Positions 37,153 through 45,733 of a stretch of DNA of 45,733 nt are shown here, piece after piece. Position numbers and translations under genes: made by a program. Positions within the stretch are counted from its first letter, which is position 1, and every line of letters starts with the position of its first letter. Below the pieces are notes generated by a model. The model did no database searches. It worked only from the letters and a program-made list of their open reading frames with translations, and was not told where the DNA came from. The DNA is from Flavobacteriaceae bacterium (lineage in GTDB: Bacteria; Bacteroidota; Bacteroidia; Flavobacteriales; Flavobacteriaceae), in contig QXZR01000085.1 of NCBI GenBank assembly GCA_009886265.1, forward strand, positions 1-45,733, in the 5' to 3' direction.

Positions 37153-40100
37153 TTAATTCAATTTATAAGCAACGGGGTATGCGTCCAAAGCTTCTAACAA
37201 TTCACCGCCAACATGCACTTTGAGTTTACGGCTCATGGTATGTAGCTTAATTTCTTCTTCTGTTTCATAGAATGTCATGTCTACTTTGTGATCTCCCTTA
37301 TGTTTTTTAAAGAGCTCATCTAAAAAGGAAGCCAACTTTTCATCTGCGTGGGCTATATCCAGTTTAAGCGTTATTTTGTGTGTACTGGTGGTTAAGGTGT
37401 CTTGAAGCAACTGAAAAGCATTGAACTGCATTCTGGCAGCGCCTCTTTTCCCCGTTTCACGGTTCAACCATCCTTCTCTTACAGAAGCCTTGACGTGGAT
37501 AAAGTTATCCTCCACCAAAAAATGTCGATACTTGAGGTACTCCTCTCCAAATATTTTAAATTGATAAGACTCCTCAAAATCTTCTAAAATAAACATGGCC
37601 CAACCTTTTCCATTCTTGGACACGCGATGGTCTACTTCTCCAACCATGCCGCCAAAGCTTAGCTCTTTGTTGACCAAAGCATCCATGTCATTGAATACCC
37701 CAAGTCTGGCATTACAAAAATGTTTCATGGCAGGAGCAAAATCATCAAGTGGGTGGGCTGATATATATATGCCTACTACTTCTTTTTCTTGCTTTAACTC
37801 CTTTAGGGCGGTCCAAGGCTCACAAATAGGGAGTTCTGGAGTGGCGATGGTCACTGCGGCATCGGCACCAAATAAACTCACCTGTGAAGATTGCTCGTTT
37901 TCTTGGTGTTGAGCGCCATACTTAAGTGCCTTTTCAACAAAAGCTACCCCGTCTCCGTTGTGGTGAAAATATTGCGATCGGTGTGCGTCAGACAAGGAGT
38001 CTAGCCCACCTGCAAGTATCAAACTTTCAAACGATTTTTTATTGGCTGCTCGAAGATCTATGCGCTGTGTCAAATCAAAAATAGATTCGTAGGGCTTCTC
38101 TTGACGATGCGCCACTATGGTCTCAACTGCGGCTCGGCCAACGCCCTTAACAGCACCCATACCAAAGCGAATGGCTCCTTTGTCGTTTACCGTAAACTTG
38201 TAGAATGATTCATTGACATCGGGTCCAAGAACCAGTATACCCATCCTGCGACACTCTTCCATAAAGAAGCTGACCTGCTTAATATCGTTCATGTTGTTGG
38301 ACAGTACCGCCGCCATATATTCTGCTGGATAGTTTGCCTTTAGGTAAGCCGTTTGATAGGCGATCCAAGCGTAACAAGTGGAGTGTGATTTGTTAAAGGC
38401 ATAGGAAGCAAACGCTTCCCAGTCTTTCCAAATCTTTTCAAGTACTTCTCTTGGGTGACCCCGTTCTTCTCCACCATTTAGAAACTTGGGTTTTAACTGC
38501 TCCAGTAAAGCAAAAATCTTTTTACCCATTGCCTTACGCAACACGTCGGCTTCACCTTTGGTGAACCCTGCCAATGCTTGAGACAATTGCATCACTTGCT
38601 CTTGATACACGGTAATGCCATAGGTTTGTTTGAGGTACTGCTCCATGGCTGGCAAATCGTAAGCGATTTCCTCCTGACCATTCTTTCTACGAACAAAACT
38701 AGGGATGTATTCTAGTGGCCCTGGGCGGTATAGCGCATTCATGGCAATTAGATCTTCAAATACATTCGGCTTTAAATCGCGAAGGTATTTTTGCATTCCC
38801 GCACTTTCATACTGAAAAACCCCAACGGTTTCACCGCGTTGAAACAACGCATAAGTGGGTGCGTCATCAAGTGGGAATTCATCTGGATTAAGCTCAATAT
38901 TGCGTTGATATTTGACAATTTTTACTGTGTCTTTTATAAGCGTAAGTGTCTTCAGCCCTAAAAAGTCCATTTTCAGTAGCCCTGCATCCTCCACAACTGA
39001 GTTGTCAAACTGGGTAACATATAAGTCAGAGTCCTTTGCGGTAGCAATAGGAACAAACTCTGTAATATCATCGGGTGTAATGATCACACCACATGCGTGT
39101 GTTCCAGTGTTGCGCAAAGAACCCTCGAGAATCTGGGCCTGCTTAAGCGTCTCAGCCTCTAAATCACTTCCCTCAGCTATGGATTTCAATTGAGCAACAC
39201 GAGCAAACTCATCCGAGCGCAAGGCTTCTTTTAGTGCCTTGTCTTCAAGATTAAAAATTTTCTTCAACTTCATGTTTGGAACTAGCTTGGCCACCCGATC
39301 TGCATCGCCCAACGACAAGTCCAACACCCGTGCGGTATCCCGAATAGACGATTTGGCTGCCATGGTACCATAGGTGATGATTTGCGCCACTTGGTTTGAC
39401 CCGTACTTTTCAATTACATAATCAATGACTTTTGATCTTCCTTCGTCGTCAAAATCAATATCAATATCAGGCAAGCTTACACGGTCGGGATTTAGGAAAC
39501 GCTCAAAAAGCAAGTCGTACTCAATGGGGTCTATATTCGTAATCTTTAGGCAGTAGGCCACCACAGAGCCTGCGGCAGATCCACGTCCTGGTCCAACCGA
39601 TACATCCATTTCTCTTGCAGCAGCAATAAAATCTTGTACAATTAAAAAGTAGCCGGGATATCCCGTGTTTTCAATAACGCTCAATTCAAAATCAATACGT
39701 TCTGTAAGTTCATCGTTTAAGGCTTCATACCGGGTCTTAGCACCTTCATAGGTAATGTGGCGCAGGTAGGCATTTTCGCCCCGCTTCCCCCCGTCGGTAT
39801 CGTCTTCAGCAGATTGAAATGCACCAGGAATATCAAATTTTGGAAGCAATACTTCTCGAGCCAAATCAAAGGCGGTTATTTTATCCAGTATTTCGGCAAT
39901 GCTTTCCAATGCTTGTGGCACATCGGCAAACAATTCTTGCATTTGTGCTGGCGTCTTGAAATAATATTCTTGGTTTGGAAGACCATATCTATAACCACGG
40001 CCACGGCCAATAGGCGTCGCCTGTTTTTCTCCGTCCTTAACACACAACAATATATCATGTGCATTGGCTTCTTCTTGCTTTAGATAAAACACAGAGTTAG

Positions 40101-41484
40101 TAGCGACAAGTTTTACATTATGCCTTTGTGAAAACTGAATAAGCACAGGGTTGATGCGGTTTTCATCCTCCTGTTGGTGCCGCATGATTTCAATGTAGAG
40201 ATCGTCATGAAACTGTTCTTTCCACCACAACAGCGCCTCCTCTGCCTGCTTTTCGCCTACGTTGAGTAATTTAGAAGGCACTTCGCCGTAAACATTCCCG
40301 GTCAGCACAATGAGGTTGTCTTTGTATTGCTGTATTAATTTTCTATCAACTCGAGGCACATAATAGAAGCCTTTGGTGTACGCCAGGGAAGATAGCTTGG
40401 ATAGGTTTTGGTAACCTGCTTTGTTTTTGGCAAGAAAAACCATCTGATAACCATTATCCCTTCGACTGCGGTCTAAGTGGTCTTCACACACGTTGAGTGT
40501 GATACCTACTATGGGTTTAAGCGGCGGCCTATCGTCATCTTCAGCGCGCTTGGCATTGACTTGTTTGACAGATTTTACAAAATGGAATGCGCCCATCAAA
40601 TTACCCAAGTCTGTTAATGCCACGGCTGGCATCCCCATTTGGTCTGCTGTTTCCGCTAGTTCTTTTACCCTTATGGTAGACTGCAAGACCGTAAATTGCG
40701 AAAGGGTGTGCAAGTGTGCAAAAGGAGTGCTTAGCGCTGTTTTGGCTAAGACAGCTGGCGTAGAAACAGGCGCTTGCTTCTCTTGAATTAGTTTTGCTGA
40801 TGCTGCCTTAAGATCGGTGTGTGACAAACCTATTAACGGCACGGCTTCTTCAAAAGTTTCATTTAGCCGTGACACAAGTAGTTCACCATCTGTGATTTGG
40901 TTTGCAGGAAATTTATTTCGACGCAGCAACTCGAAAAACGCACGGGCTGTAGCCTCTACATCTGCAGTGGCATTGTGCGCTTGGTCAAAGCTGTCATCAA
41001 ATAACTGTTTGTAGAGTTCTGAAAGGGTTGGCAGTTTAAATCTTCCTCCTCTGCCACCAGGTATTTGACATAGCGTAGCAGTGTGCTCTGTACAAGTGTC
41101 TAAAATGGGGGTTGTGGTAACAGAAGTATCCAAACCAAGGCGGTCTAGCTCTGCGCCAATGATATTGACGTCAAACTTTACATTATGACCAATGATGTAT
41201 TTTGATTTGGCCAATGCAGTGTTAAAGTCAGCTAAAATTGCATTTATAGCACTGCCTTCTTTAGTCGATAGCGCTGTGCTAATTCCATGTATTTGTTCTG
41301 ACTCAAAAGGAATATCAAAACCTTCAGGGGAAACAATAAAATCCTTGTGTTCTACACAGTTGCCAAAGTCATCGTGAAGTTGCCATGCAATCTGAACACA
41401 TCGTGGCCAATTTTCATGATCTGAAATAGGCGCATCCCAGCGTTTTGGCAAGCCAGTGGTTTCGGTATCAAAAACTAAAAACAT
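37153..41484 (-). CDS. dnaE: DNA polymerase III alpha subunit with N-terminal proofreading exonuclease
   Basis: 1443 residues. An N-terminal DEDDh exonuclease of the DnaQ type (about 1-190) has all catalytic residues: Asp6 and Glu8 (FDTETTG), Asp105 (HNVKFD), His170 and Asp175 (HNATADVEA). A PHP domain starts near 255 but its metal motif is degraded (HLHTLSQF in place of HxHxHSxYS). The C-family polymerase core follows with PDIDIDFDDEGR supplying the catalytic aspartates, GRGSAAGSVVAYCL and GGEERGHPREVLE, then helix-hairpin-helix and OB-fold parts. It is the chromosomal replicase. The exonuclease-polymerase fusion is, from memory, typical for flavobacteria. Divergent from rpsP. Confidence 0.97.
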   Translation of the reverse strand: MFLVFDTETTGLPKRWDAPISDHENWPRCVQIAWQLHDDFGNCVEHKDFIVSPEGFDIPFESEQIHGISTALSTKEGSAINAILADFNTALAKSKYIIGHNVKFDVNIIGAELDRLGLDTSVTTTPILDTCTEHTATLCQIPGGRGGRFKLPTLSELYKQLFDDSFDQAHNATADVEATARAFFELLRRNKFPANQITDGELLVSRLNETFEEAVPLIGLSHTDLKAASAKLIQEKQAPVSTPAVLAKTALSTPFAHLHTLSQFTVLQSTIRVKELAETADQMGMPAVALTDLGNLMGAFHFVKSVKQVNAKRAEDDDRPPLKPIVGITLNVCEDHLDRSRRDNGYQMVFLAKNKAGYQNLSKLSSLAYTKGFYYVPRVDRKLIQQYKDNLIVLTGNVYGEVPSKLLNVGEKQAEEALLWWKEQFHDDLYIEIMRHQQEDENRINPVLIQFSQRHNVKLVATNSVFYLKQEEANAHDILLCVKDGEKQATPIGRGRGYRYGLPNQEYYFKTPAQMQELFADVPQALESIAEILDKITAFDLAREVLLPKFDIPGAFQSAEDDTDGGKRGENAYLRHITYEGAKTRYEALNDELTERIDFELSVIENTGYPGYFLIVQDFIAAAREMDVSVGPGRGSAAGSVVAYCLKITNIDPIEYDLLFERFLNPDRVSLPDIDIDFDDEGRSKVIDYVIEKYGSNQVAQIITYGTMAAKSSIRDTARVLDLSLGDADRVAKLVPNMKLKKIFNLEDKALKEALRSDEFARVAQLKSIAEGSDLEAETLKQAQILEGSLRNTGTHACGVIITPDDITEFVPIATAKDSDLYVTQFDNSVVEDAGLLKMDFLGLKTLTLIKDTVKIVKYQRNIELNPDEFPLDDAPTYALFQRGETVGVFQYESAGMQKYLRDLKPNVFEDLIAMNALYRPGPLEYIPSFVRRKNGQEEIAYDLPAMEQYLKQTYGITVYQEQVMQLSQALAGFTKGEADVLRKAMGKKIFALLEQLKPKFLNGGEERGHPREVLEKIWKDWEAFASYAFNKSHSTCYAWIAYQTAYLKANYPAEYMAAVLSNNMNDIKQVSFFMEECRRMGILVLGPDVNESFYKFTVNDKGAIRFGMGAVKGVGRAAVETIVAHRQEKPYESIFDLTQRIDLRAANKKSFESLILAGGLDSLSDAHRSQYFHHNGDGVAFVEKALKYGAQHQENEQSSQVSLFGADAAVTIATPELPICEPWTALKELKQEKEVVGIYISAHPLDDFAPAMKHFCNARLGVFNDMDALVNKELSFGGMVGEVDHRVSKNGKGWAMFILEDFEESYQFKIFGEEYLKYRHFLVEDNFIHVKASVREGWLNRETGKRGAARMQFNAFQLLQDTLTTSTHKITLKLDIAHADEKLASFLDELFKKHKGDHKVDMTFYETEEEIKLHTMSRKLKVHVGGELLEALDAYPVAYKLN

Positions 41485-41558
41485 GGTAACGGATTAGCCA
41501 ACTAATTTAGTGAAGTTAGTATGTAAAATATACGCAAGTGAATATGAAGTTATTAACG

Positions 41559-41589
41559 TTTGGTAAAATCAAAAAATAGTGTAGATTTG
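41559..41589 (+). promoter_or_regulatory. Promoter of the rpsP-rimM operon
   Basis: TTTG, then exactly 19 bases, then TAGATTTG: a full match to the Bacteroidota TTTG-N19-TAnnTTTG promoter, the best in the window. Transcription should start near 41595, giving a leader of about 40 bases before rpsP. Confidence 0.85.
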
Positions 41590-41635
41590 CCACGCATTAA
41601 TAACCAGGGTTTTGCACCCAAAAATTTAATTTGAT

Positions 41636-42325
41636 ATGTCAGTAAAAATTCGTCTTCAAAGACACGGTAAAAAAGGAAAGCCCTTCTATTGGGTAGTTGC
41701 AGCAGATGCACGTTCTAAAAGAGATGGTCGCTACCTAGAAAAAATAGGTACTTACAATCCCAATACCAACCCAGCAACATTAAAAATCGACGTTGACAGC
41801 GCTGTTAATTGGCTTCAAAACGGAGCACAACCAACGGACACAGCTCGTAACTTACTATCTGAAGTAGGTGCTATGTTGAAAAATCACCTAGTTAATGGTG
41901 TTCACAAAGGTGCGCTTAAAGAAGAAGACGTTGAAACAAAATTTGAAGCGTGGTTGGCTGATAAAGCATCACGCAACACTGTTAATATTGAAAAACTTTC
42001 CAAAGCTAAAGCCGACGAAAAAGCTAAAATTTTAGCTGCTGAAAAAGAAGTTAGCGAAAAACGAAAGGCTGATGCCGAAACTGCAATAGCAGAGGAAGAA
42101 GCTGCGGCTGCAGCATCTGAAGCTGAAGCTGCTGCTGAGAAAGCTGCATCAGAGGCTCCGGTTGAGGAAGCTGCACCAGAGGCTGACGCTGAAGAAGCTG
42201 CACCTGAAGCTGCTGCTGAAGAAGCTGCACCAGAGGCTGCCGCTGAAGAAGCTGCACCAGAGGCTGCCACTGAAGAAGCTGCCGCTGAAGAAGCTGCACC
42301 AGAGGCTGACGAGAAGGCTGAATAA
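41636..42325 (+). CDS. rpsP: 30S ribosomal protein S16 with long acidic C-terminal repeat tail
   Basis: 229 residues. The first 80 or so form the normal S16 domain ([56 protein letters not shown]), which binds 16S rRNA during 30S assembly. A helical Bacteroidota-type extension (80-140) and a charged, coiled-coil-like segment ([20 protein letters not shown]) follow. The last 55 residues are five copies of the nine-residue unit EEAAPEAxx with one shortened unit, strongly acidic. E. coli S16 is only 82 residues long. rimM starts 9 bases after the stop. Confidence 0.96.
42164..42313 (+). repeat. In-frame 27-base tandem repeat in rpsP
   Basis: Five copies of a 27-base unit beginning GAAGAAGCTGCACCAGAGGC, encoding EEAAPEAxx, plus a 15-base partial copy between the fourth and fifth. 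Copies differ mostly at wobble bases and at the last two codons. Such arrays can change in copy number by slippage without breaking the frame. Confidence 0.85.
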
Positions 42326-42334
42326 CACCAACAC

Positions 42335-42868
42335 ATGCGTTTCGAAGACTGTTTTTTTCTTGGAACAGTGGTCGGTAAATACAGTTTTAAAGGCGAAGTA
42401 CTCCTTAAGCTAGATACTGACGAGCCAGAAATATATCAATCCCTTGATAGTCTCTTTCTAGCACAAAACAATGCGCTTATCCCTTTTTTTGTTGAGAAGT
42501 GTGCCATGCACAAACCTGGATTATTACGTCTTCGCTTAGAGGATGTCGATAATGAGGAAGATGCCAATCTGATACTTAAGTTAAAAGCATATTTGCCATT
42601 GACGAAGCTTCCAAAACTGGCTGGAAATAAATTTTATTACCACGAAATCATCGGTTTTGATGTTGTTGACAAAAACTTGGGCGAGATTGGTTCCGTTGTA
42701 GCAATTAATGAACATACCGCACAGGCAACCATTGAAGTTTCCATTGGTCAAAAAATAGCTTTAATCCCAATAGTTGATGAGATCATTTTGGAGGTTAAAA
42801 GAGATACAAAATCCATTTACGTTGACACGCCACCAGGCCTGATTGACCTTTACACCAACGATGCGTAG
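42335..42868 (+). CDS. rimM: Ribosome maturation factor RimM
   Basis: 177 residues. The N-terminal RimM domain (CFFLGTVVGKYSFKGEVLLK) is followed by a PRC-barrel (KFYYHEIIGFDVVDKNLGEIG, ALIPIVDEIILEVKRDTKSI, ending DTPPGLIDLY). It binds S19 and helps mature the 30S head, and it normally sits next to rpsP, as here (9-base gap). Its last codons overlap the start of the TonB-dependent receptor by 8 bases, so that receptor is coupled to a ribosomal operon. Confidence 0.96.
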   Translation: MRFEDCFFLGTVVGKYSFKGEVLLKLDTDEPEIYQSLDSLFLAQNNALIPFFVEKCAMHKPGLLRLRLEDVDNEEDANLILKLKAYLPLTKLPKLAGNKFYYHEIIGFDVVDKNLGEIGSVVAINEHTAQATIEVSIGQKIALIPIVDEIILEVKRDTKSIYVDTPPGLIDLYTNDA

Positions 42869-44780
42869 GGCTTTATACTTTATGTTGCTATTTTCCGCAA
42901 TTTGCCATGCGCAAGTGCAACAGTTAGAAGAAGTAGTTTTACGTGCACAGCGAATACAAAGCAGTATTCAACCCATAAGTCAAACGGATATTGCCCAAGA
43001 CAGCCTACTGCTAAAGCAAGACATTGGAGAATTATTACAAGGCGTACCCAGCTTATTTGTCAGCAGCCAGCAAAATTTCAGTCAAGACACACGCATTTCC
43101 ATTCGTGGGTTTGGAACACGTGCCACTTTTGGCATTCGCGGTATTAAGGTTTTGTGGGATGGCATCCCCGTTACTACACCCGATGGACAGACACAATTGG
43201 ACCACATTCCATTATCCTCCATGGGAACTATTGAAGTTATTCGAGGCGTTTCTAGTGGGCTGTATGGCAATGCATCGGGAGGCGTCATATTGCTCAAAAG
43301 CACCCCAATTAAAAATGAACAAACACTTACCGCAACATTCGGAGACTTTGGCACCCAACACTTGGTTGGCAGCTACGGTTCTAAGAATGAAAAAAATCTG
43401 TTTCGCGCCGTCGTAGAACACAAAAAATACAATGGTTACCGACATTGGAGTGGCTATGAAAACAGCCTCATAAACCTATCCAATACCTTTATTATTACCA
43501 ACGGAAATAAACTTTCTGTTGATTACAGTTATTTCAACAGTCCAATGGCATTGGATGCTGGCGGGCTCACATTAGCTGAAGTAACACAAAACCGCAGTCA
43601 AGCAAGACAGCGAAACCTAGATTATAAAGCAGGTGAAAAGGTGCAACAGCATCAATTCACGGCGCGTTGGCAAAGTAAAAAATGGACCGCTTATGGGTTT
43701 TTTACAAAACGTAATCTAGATGCGAAACTGCCTTTTGAATTTGGTGGTCAAATTGATTTGGGGCGTAGTTACTATGGTCTTGGCATGCAGAAAGACGGAC
43801 GTAAAAAGCAGTGGCTATGGCAATATGGCGTTGAGGCAGCAGCCCAAAGAGACGGAAGAAACAGGTTTAAAAACATCTTGGGAGAAAAAGGAACCGCTAC
43901 GCTAGACCAAAGCGAACGCTTTTACACACTTGGCGCCTATGGCATTGTTGAATTAGCCCTCAGCGATTGGCGATTCCGTGCGACGCTTCGTGCCGACACC
44001 CACCGCATACAACTCGTTGATTTTATGGGCACTAATTCGGACAAAAAAAACCTGTCTGCCTTCTCTCCTGCTATCGCGGCATTTTATAGCTTTTCGCCCA
44101 GCCTAAGCAGTTATATCCGTTGGGGAACAGGCTTTGAAACACCATCACTCAATGAACTATCTGCCAATCCAACAGGAAAAACTGGCTTTAATAATATACT
44201 AACGCCCCAACAATCAGAAGAAGTAGAAGTTGGCTTGTATCTAAAAACAAAGATTTTTCACGCTTCGCTTACACTGTTTACAACAACAACCCAAGACGAG
44301 ATTTTATCCTACGAGCTTAACGCTTTTCCAGGGCAAGATTTTTTTAGGAATATTGGCCGTGTAGACAGAAAAGGTATTGAGGCTACAGCCAACTTTCGCA
44401 TGGCAAAAACTGCCACCCTAAAACTCAATTATAGCCAGGGAACATTTAAAACCCAAGACAGCAATGACTTGCCTAACGTACCTAGAAGTCAGTTTAGCGC
44501 AGGCCTAAATCATCTTTTTGGAAAAACTGCTGTATCGCTGAACATACGCCATATAGGCAAGCGTTATGCCGATTCTAAAAACCTTGTTGAAGTATCAGAA
44601 TTTTGGACATTTGACCTGTATGCGCAACGCAAATGGGACATAACAACTTGGACAATGGGCATTAGTAATATTGCCAATGCAAACTACTATGACAATATCC
44701 GTATCAATGCCTTTGGTGGGCGATACTTTGAGCCTGCTGCCATGCGCCAAGCCTTTGCGCGTGTTCAAGTGCAGTTATAG
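42861..44780 (+). CDS. pqqU: TonB-dependent outer-membrane receptor resembling PqqU (YncD)
   Basis: 639 residues from ATG 42861 (an upstream ATG would add six residues). Signal peptide about 1-17 (SAICHA), then LEEVVLRAQR, a plug domain (about 35-145) and a 22-strand barrel to the C-terminus. Stretches closely follow E. coli PqqU/YncD as I remember it: SIRGFGTRATFGIRGIKV, DGIPVTTPDGQTQ, GLYGNASGGV, DAGGLTLAEVTQN, TGFETPSLNELS and GGRYFEPA. In E. coli this protein imports the redox cofactor pyrroloquinoline quinone. There is no SusC-type N-terminal carboxypeptidase-like domain. The next gene is a PQQ-dependent sugar dehydrogenase, which supports the assignment. The symbol is tentative: a different small substrate cannot be excluded without alignment. 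Confidence 0.75.
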   Translation: MRRALYFMLLFSAICHAQVQQLEEVVLRAQRIQSSIQPISQTDIAQDSLLLKQDIGELLQGVPSLFVSSQQNFSQDTRISIRGFGTRATFGIRGIKVLWDGIPVTTPDGQTQLDHIPLSSMGTIEVIRGVSSGLYGNASGGVILLKSTPIKNEQTLTATFGDFGTQHLVGSYGSKNEKNLFRAVVEHKKYNGYRHWSGYENSLINLSNTFIITNGNKLSVDYSYFNSPMALDAGGLTLAEVTQNRSQARQRNLDYKAGEKVQQHQFTARWQSKKWTAYGFFTKRNLDAKLPFEFGGQIDLGRSYYGLGMQKDGRKKQWLWQYGVEAAAQRDGRNRFKNILGEKGTATLDQSERFYTLGAYGIVELALSDWRFRATLRADTHRIQLVDFMGTNSDKKNLSAFSPAIAAFYSFSPSLSSYIRWGTGFETPSLNELSANPTGKTGFNNILTPQQSEEVEVGLYLKTKIFHASLTLFTTTTQDEILSYELNAFPGQDFFRNIGRVDRKGIEATANFRMAKTATLKLNYSQGTFKTQDSNDLPNVPRSQFSAGLNHLFGKTAVSLNIRHIGKRYADSKNLVEVSEFWTFDLYAQRKWDITTWTMGISNIANANYYDNIRINAFGGRYFEPAAMRQAFARVQVQL

Positions 44781-44794
44781 ATTTGGTATATTTG
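44754..44794 (+). promoter_or_regulatory. Promoter of the PQQ sugar dehydrogenase gene
   Basis: TTTG, 20 bases, then TAGATTTG (44778-44785) is close to the standard pattern; a second -7 box TATATTTG (44787-44794) overlaps just downstream. The ATG follows at 44816. The promoter lies over the receptor stop, so the dehydrogenase can be expressed on its own. Confidence 0.6.
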
Positions 44795-44815
44795 TGATAA
44801 TGCTAAATTAACCCC

Positions 44816-45733
44816 ATGAAAAGAAACATCACCATACTGGCTTGTGTAACTTTTATATTAAGCCAAACATCTTGTGCCCAAAAAGAAAACACACCTCCTC
44901 TTAAAACACCAACAAGTGTATCGTATACTACAGCGCTTGTTGTTTCTGATGTAGAAGTACCGTGGGGAATGGTCTTTCTGCCCAATGGGAGTTTATTGTA
45001 CACGGAAAAAGAAGGGAAGTTAATACGCTTTCAATACGGCAAAAAAAATGAGATTTCTGGTTTGCCTACCCCCTATGTTCGTGGTCAGGGCGGCTTGATG
45101 GGCATTGCCCTCCACCCCGATTTTGAACAAAATAACCGGATCTATTTTACCATGGCAACCGCCAATGAAGATGCCTCTGGAGGAAATACAGGCTTGTATA
45201 CTGCTACACTAAGAGGAAACGCACTCTCAGACGTAAAACTACTATACAAGGCTGTGCCTGACACAAAAAAAGGAGTGCACTTTGGATCACGTATCGTATT
45301 TGATTCAGATGGGTATCTTTATTTCTCTGTGGGTGATAGAGGTGAACGAGATATAAACCCACAAGACATTACACGGGATAATGGTAAAATATACCGCTTA
45401 AACGATGACGGAAGTGTTCCAATTGATAACCCTTTTGTAGGAGTAAATGGCGCTAAAGAAGCCATTTATTCTTATGGTCACCGTAATCCACAAGGGCTTA
45501 CAATACATCCTGAAACAGGTGAGATATGGGCACACGAGCACGGGCCAAGAGGCGGCGATGAAATTAACATCATCGAAGCAGGAAAAAACTATGGTTGGCC
45601 CAAAATCACCTACGGCAAGAATTATACAGGAACAACCATTACTAAAAACCGTTCGCTACCGGGAATGGAGCAGCCTTTCTACTATTGGGTACCTTCAATA
45701 GCAGCCTCAGGAATGGCATTTGTTACGGGTAAT
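44816..45733 (+). CDS. PQQ-dependent aldose sugar dehydrogenase, partial (first 306 residues)
   Basis: The gene runs off the right edge with an open frame of 306 codons. An N-terminal signal peptide (about 1-21, ending SCA) exports it to the periplasm. A six-bladed beta-propeller of the soluble glucose/aldose dehydrogenase (GDH-B/Asd) family is evident from VPWGMVFLPNGSLLYTEKEG, GLMGIALHPDF, GVHFGSRIVFDSDGYLY, SYGHRNPQGL and EHGPRGGDEIN. His155 and Arg223 match the catalytic and PQQ-binding His and Arg of the Acinetobacter enzyme. It would oxidise sugars and pass electrons to the respiratory chain, using PQQ and calcium. The preceding receptor is PqqU-like. The C-terminal blades are outside the window. 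Confidence 0.9.
   Translation, partial: MKRNITILACVTFILSQTSCAQKENTPPLKTPTSVSYTTALVVSDVEVPWGMVFLPNGSLLYTEKEGKLIRFQYGKKNEISGLPTPYVRGQGGLMGIALHPDFEQNNRIYFTMATANEDASGGNTGLYTATLRGNALSDVKLLYKAVPDTKKGVHFGSRIVFDSDGYLYFSVGDRGERDINPQDITRDNGKIYRLNDDGSVPIDNPFVGVNGAKEAIYSYGHRNPQGLTIHPETGEIWAHEHGPRGGDEINIIEAGKNYGWPKITYGKNYTGTTITKNRSLPGMEQPFYYWVPSIAASGMAFVTGN

Follow-up and report, generated by a model that had tools for sequence, protein, structure and literature searches.

A probable PQQ scavenging-and-use gene pair, a PqqU-type receptor and an aldose sugar dehydrogenase, in a genus of Flavobacteriaceae

The closest relative of solved structure for the receptor examined here is PqqU (YncD) of Escherichia coli, a TonB-dependent receptor for the cofactor pyrroloquinoline quinone (PQQ). 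A survey of its distribution among bacteria (Munder et al. 2025, PMC12124388) reported a predicted PQQ-dependent dehydrogenase in 67% of PqqU carriers. Its methods list three Pfam families of PQQ repeats plus an additional profile, and do not name PF07995. The same article defines the PqqU signature as Y/F/W99, R304 and R365 in E. coli numbering, and describes 206 Bacteroidota carriers of PqqU with no PQQ biosynthesis genes. Here we analyzed a stretch of DNA from a Flavobacteriaceae bacterium, a single contig of 45733 bases (QXZR01000085.1, designated G000:C99) that we refer to as the window; its own genome amounts to 1.45 Mb and is 82% complete. The window ends in a gene for a TonB-dependent receptor followed by a gene for an aldose sugar dehydrogenase. 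We conclude that the receptor is very probably a PqqU that imports PQQ for the adjoining Asd-type dehydrogenase, in a cell that probably scavenges PQQ and does not synthesize it. The pair is laid out as follows:

42861..44780, + strand: pqqU, TonB-dependent receptor assigned to the PqqU family, 639 aa, Pfam Plug and TonB barrel domains, ATG at 42861
44781..44815, + strand: spacer between pqqU and gsdh, 35 bases
44816..45733, + strand: gsdh/asd, N-terminal 306 aa of a predicted PQQ-dependent aldose sugar dehydrogenase (PF07995), without a stop codon at the contig end

A phmmer search of the PDB with the receptor returned E. coli YncD/PqqU as the top match (188 and 184 bits, E values of 2.2e-54 and 3.1e-53). 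The next-best other receptors reached at most 37 bits (E 9e-9), leaving a gap of about 150 bits. The PqqU equivalog NF041535 was the best of 17 NCBIfam models, scoring 218 bits versus 138 for a siderophore subfamily. Among 72,556 plasmid records, 31 receptor matches were found, all below 60% identity, and several of the 30 listed are annotated as PqqU. The original prediction had named four stretches shared with E. coli PqqU, and alignment bore them out: GFGTRATFGIRG in the window receptor is aligned with GFGSRSTYGIRG in the E. coli protein, DAGGLTLAEV with DDPGGLTKAEW, GFETPSLNELS with GFETPTINELS, and GGRYFEPA with NGRYYEPS. No better match to another clade of TonB receptors was found in NCBIfam, the PDB, the plasmid records or the tree described below.

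We compared pocket residues in an alignment of 128 receptors, repeated with 136. At the scored positions, the window receptor carries Q84, F99, Q121, E274, R304, R365, N477, A481 and Q536. The PqqU signature, with Phe at 99 and Arg at both 304 and 365, is present in 16/16 receptors of the window's genus, as are Q84, Q121 and N477. All 16 match the window receptor at every scored pocket position except 481. The phylogeny is consistent with this picture. In a FastTree of 134 rows, the 59 signature rows form one clade with a support of 98, which holds E. coli PqqU, a PqqU-annotated protein of Rahnella and, from Ideonella and Alteromonas, receptors that bear the signature; outside it lie 69 rows scored as signature-less and 6 unscored ones. 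This tree omits 6 of the 16 genus rows and contains a row (Cc_PqqU, L213) that represents a wrong reading frame of 1007 aa on a very long branch. The latter was excluded from an IQ-TREE analysis of 47 of the 134 rows, which joins the window receptor to further receptors of the phylum that bear the signature (99/97).

The original prediction read the next gene as one for a PQQ-dependent aldose dehydrogenase that retains His155 and Arg223; both residues are present and correctly numbered. Its product matched PF07995 (GSDH) at 355.9 bits (cut-off 25, E 3e-106) and aligned over the whole domain with solved structures (PDB 7cdy, 1e-67; E. coli YliI, 2g8s, 3e-67). His155, Arg223 and Asn224 are identical in 36/36 aligned dehydrogenases, Gly243 in 24/36 and Pro244 in 23/36. 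By analogy with soluble glucose dehydrogenase, His155 and Arg223 are presumably catalytic, and a C-terminal Lys and an Arg-x-Arg motif would contact PQQ. The window dehydrogenase ends before these C-terminal residues; four aligned genus relatives have GSLKK and RVRDV. As judged by eye, the N-terminus of the dehydrogenase is lipoprotein-like, with Cys20, and that of the receptor resembles a signal peptide.

Conservation of the pair was examined in a genus set of 17 incomplete genomes (64-89% complete). Taxon names (Flavobacteriaceae, Bacteroidota) of compared genomes other than the window's own and the three close relatives given below are used here by inference. The receptor was found in 16 of the 17 genomes, and the same 16 gave one PF07995 match each. 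In 16/16 carriers the receptor gene and the PF07995 gene are same-strand neighbors, with gaps of 31-52 bases in the 14 loci measured (all except L033 and L036, with an upstream Met taken in L028, L030 and L017). Three close relatives, which are Flavobacteriaceae metagenome-assembled genomes, have receptors 85-92% identical to that of the window, and the pair persists within the genus while receptor identity drops to 54%. Genes following the dehydrogenase vary between many members. The remaining genome, G300 (80% complete), gave neither a receptor nor a PF07995 match. G306 carries another receptor copy (L024/L040), truncated where its contig stops, which was excluded from the pair count. A PF13360 quinoprotein was matched once, just above cut-off, in G304, and not in the other 16 genus genomes.

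Outside the genus, receptor searches in the order, phylum and class scored only the 2 to 4 top candidates of each genome, and further receptors may have been missed. Window-like receptors are rare, being found in 2 of 296 order genomes at 1e-40 and in 7 of 395 class genomes at 1e-50, the window's own genome included in both counts. Matches to NF041535 at 1e-45 or better were found in 111 of 395 phylum genomes. We fetched 110 NF041535 loci (the window excluded) together with those of G074, G982, G935 and G722, with flanks of about 5 kb, some up to 10 kb, and shorter ones at contig ends. Among signature-bearing receptors of the phylum outside the genus that also have Q84, 2/10 loci carry an adjacent PF07995 gene (G074 and G374); in both, the dehydrogenase gene comes first and the receptor gene follows in the same orientation, after 19 and 8 bases, respectively. 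Two of the 35 loci with the signature and without Q84 (G636 and G554) have a PF07995 gene at a distance of about 1.3 kb, with two small reading frames in between. Signature-less receptors have PF07995 nearby in 15/71 loci, all within a single clade of 19 loci; the fetched flanks of the remaining 52 contain none. A phylum-wide linkage between receptor and PF07995 was examined and not found. The linkage is stable within the genus, and signature-bearing receptors outside it show it only sporadically. The co-occurrence with PQQ enzymes raised in the original prediction holds for PF07995 in 16/17 genus genomes; it is the physical linkage that is patchy beyond the genus. At the level of whole genomes, PF07995 is present in 36/42 signature carriers of the phylum draw versus 211/353 other genomes, among the matches listed (Fisher p 0.0005, uncorrected for relatedness). 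On a Rahnella plasmid (NZ_CP089920.1; L215 3764-8498), pqqU is followed on the same strand by a gene for a membrane PQQ glucose/quinate dehydrogenase; a phmmer search found no homologues of this dehydrogenase in the fetched loci.

Two of these settings have features of their own. In G074 (L041 4307-9589), genes for a histidine kinase, a LytTR response regulator, a PF07995 enzyme and a PqqU-type receptor form one same-strand run. Because a receptor of this type occurs in only 1/88 genomes of the G074 family (1e-50), our data suggest that it was gained horizontally, perhaps with regulated expression. At L123 (6908-8220) and L127 (6857-8074), a signature-bearing receptor is separated from the PF07995 gene by two frames of 195 and 112 or 108 aa that match nothing in Pfam.

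Several observations weigh against reading the receptor as PqqU and the two genes as a scavenging-and-use pair. The first group concerns the receptor: 1) its identity to copies of E. coli PqqU is only about 28%; 2) the 47-row IQ-TREE does not place the E. coli PqqU group; 3) a structure prediction from four sequences reached a predicted local distance difference test score (pLDDT) of 26.9 and a predicted template modeling score (pTM) of 0.17, and nothing was drawn from the model; and 4) Lys274 is replaced by Glu in 16/16 genus sequences, Arg536 by Gln, and positions 308, 310 and 481 (Gln, Gln and Tyr in E. coli PqqU) differ as well. The pocket proposed for inspection in the original prediction is kept at the signature positions and at Q84, Q121 and N477, but not at 274 and 536. 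The receptor also misses the NF041535 cut-off of 1200 bits by far, a cut-off that none of the 395 phylum genomes reached and that may be too narrow for the phylum. Because identity is so low and the NF041535 score lies so far under its cut-off, membership in PqqU rests on the pocket residues and the tree.

Both replacements are touched on in PMC12124388. There, K274E impaired E. coli PqqU, yet Glu occupies this position in a considerable fraction of modeled natural homologues; R536 is termed semiconserved, and neither residue is demanded as a PqqU filter. Glu at 274 is linked in the same text to possible metal co-transport, a metal having been modeled at the 274 site when Glu is there. A variant compatible with PQQ import is that PQQ enters together with Ca2+ or a lanthanide by virtue of the K274-to-Glu change, which is constant across the 16 genus sequences. 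Modeled metals are generally of low confidence in that article, and we regard co-import as rather unlikely. A competing reading is that the receptor takes up some other compound, for instance a siderophore or a molecule derived from a substrate, and that the dehydrogenase is near it through some other shared pathway. TonB receptors of similar fold have many ligands, related receptor clades lack the signature, and R536 and some polar pocket residues are changed in the window receptor. However, the 16 genus sequences keep the signature arginines and the aromatic residue without variation, none of the other receptor families comes near PqqU in score, and the family of the adjoining enzyme uses PQQ. 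A different ligand therefore appears improbable, and import of PQQ remains the favored reading.

The second group of opposing observations concerns linkage and synthesis. No PF07995 gene lies within the fetched flanks of 8/10 loci with the signature and Q84 or of 33/35 loci with the signature only, in E. coli a long distance separates pqqU from yliI, the Asd gene, and the adjacency in the genus may reflect a single ancestral event. We accordingly considered whether a PqqU and an Asd gene were once placed behind rimM and have stayed neighbors by ancestry, with no functional coupling. A single arrangement is common to all genus members, and most other signature-bearing receptors are located elsewhere, as this explanation would have it. 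Against it stand the pairings with another gene order or another dehydrogenase in G074, G374 and Rahnella, the joint absence of both genes from G300, and the constancy of the pair while downstream genes differ between many members, and we give mere ancestry little credence relative to a functional pair. With respect to synthesis, the original prediction had noted that pqqABCDE genes are missing from the window and proposed a genome-wide search. No pqqD was found in the window's own genome, in a search whose positive control gave matches in 3/14 genomes. Likewise, pqqC was found in 0/17 genus genomes, but this result is weak since its positive control matched nowhere, and pqqA, pqqB and pqqE were not searched. 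Of the outcomes that the original prediction had named as speaking against it (a better-matching receptor clade, loss of the pocket residues, a complete biosynthesis operon, or no co-occurrence in relatives), none emerged where tried, and the reading as a scavenging-and-use pair is supported.

Homology to the characterized proteins suggests how such a pair would work. PqqU at the cell surface would capture dissolved PQQ with high affinity, and TonB energy would drive it through the receptor into the periplasm. A periplasmic Asd-type dehydrogenase, probably anchored as a lipoprotein, would then load PQQ and Ca2+, and would oxidize aldose sugars, the electrons passing on to the respiratory chain. 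Probably without PQQ synthesis of its own, the cell would draw its supply from neighbors.

Upstream of the pair, the following genes were named by inspection of their sequences:

41636..42325, + strand: rpsP, with an Ala/Glu-rich tail; opens the rpsP-rimM-pqqU-gsdh run
42335..42868, + strand: rimM, directly 5' of pqqU

The reading frames of rimM and pqqU overlap by 8 bases, from the ATG of pqqU to the stop of rimM, and a search of the + strand of 41400-45733 turned up no terminator-like site. The spacing suggests that rimM and pqqU are cotranscribed. In the genus, rimM is directly 5' of the receptor in 15/16 loci, the exception being L012, which ends about 200 bases upstream; rpsP was recognized before rimM in 10 loci, and in most others the contig or the fetched stretch stops earlier. 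A polysaccharide-utilization (SusC/SusD) reading was set aside, SusC being absent among the NCBIfam matches and the neighbors in the genus being rimM and the dehydrogenase gene. Two further features of the window were seen in passing. The Ala/Glu-rich tail of rpsP is encoded by 27-base tandem repeats (42097-42297), and the - strand of 37153-41484 encodes a DNA polymerase III alpha subunit fused to an N-terminal epsilon-like exonuclease domain.

The clade of 19 signature-less receptors that contains all the PF07995-linked ones comes entirely from the window's family, with 14 members from one genus (code g2). For the two receptors tested, the nearest solved relative is PqqU. The aromatic residue at 99 is kept in this clade, R365 is absent, and position 304 is basic in 18/19 receptors (Lys in 15, Arg in 3). 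PF07995 is near in 15/19 loci (L153, L157, L162, L163, L166-L171, L173, L176, L178, L185 and L192), adjacent on the same strand in 11 and convergent one frame away in 4; L179, L184, L188 and L189 have none nearby. The intervening frame in the 4 convergent loci is 147-148 aa long; that of L163, the only one tested, encodes a cytochrome c. A cytochrome c gene also lies 3' of the dehydrogenase gene in L192. The dehydrogenases linked to this clade are of two kinds, one of which groups with the enzyme of the window's genus (87/81) in a dehydrogenase tree that carries warnings: its outgroup is not one side of any branch, its bootstrap is unsettled and long branches come together. Tentatively, and with somewhat less than even confidence, we propose that flavobacteria pair PF07995 enzymes with two PqqU-family receptors, the second clade being another PQQ importer overlooked by the published residue filter. 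Alternatively, receptors of the second clade may import something else.

The original prediction also treated the linkage as not known to be described in flavobacteria. No report of a receptor-PF07995 linkage was found in the literature, in a search that left subscription papers and supplements outside, and the terms PF07995, YliI, aldose, soluble glucose and adjacent do not occur in the main text of PMC12124388. PQQ scavenging in Bacteroidota had already been published in that article, which makes the novelty smaller than the original prediction suggested. PqqU in Bacteroidota without PQQ synthesis is known; what is new is how closely it is linked to a PF07995 enzyme, together with the second clade of receptors. 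A single linked PF07995 enzyme directly suggests what the imported cofactor serves. With a single importer, a single likely user, a small genome and no sign of synthesis found, the genus offers a clean test case. These results also suggest that PqqU carriers be surveyed again with PF07995 included, and they point to a second candidate clade of PQQ receptors.

Compared with known systems, the window receptor is like E. coli PqqU (NP_415968.1; PDB 9c4o and 6v81) in its Plug and barrel, over a near full-length alignment, and has in common with it the signature at residues 99, 304 and 365 together with Q84, Q121 and N477. It differs in sequence (about 28% identity), in having Glu, Gln and Ala in place of K274, R536 and Y481, and in gene context, as E. 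coli pqqU adjoins mcbR and yncE whereas the window pqqU adjoins an aldose dehydrogenase gene. The Bacteroidota PqqU homologues described in PMC12124388 likewise bear the signature; to these the window adds physical linkage to a PF07995 dehydrogenase. The dehydrogenase, in turn, has the same His, Arg-Asn and Gly-Pro positions as E. coli YliI (Asd, PDB 2g8s) and the enzyme of PDB 7cdy/7cgz. It is distinguished from them by its lipoprotein-like N-terminus and, unlike E. coli yliI, its gene lies behind that of a putative PQQ receptor. Finally, the Rahnella plasmid resembles the window in that a PQQ enzyme gene directly follows pqqU on the same strand, but there the enzyme is a membrane-bound dehydrogenase of another class and the host is proteobacterial.

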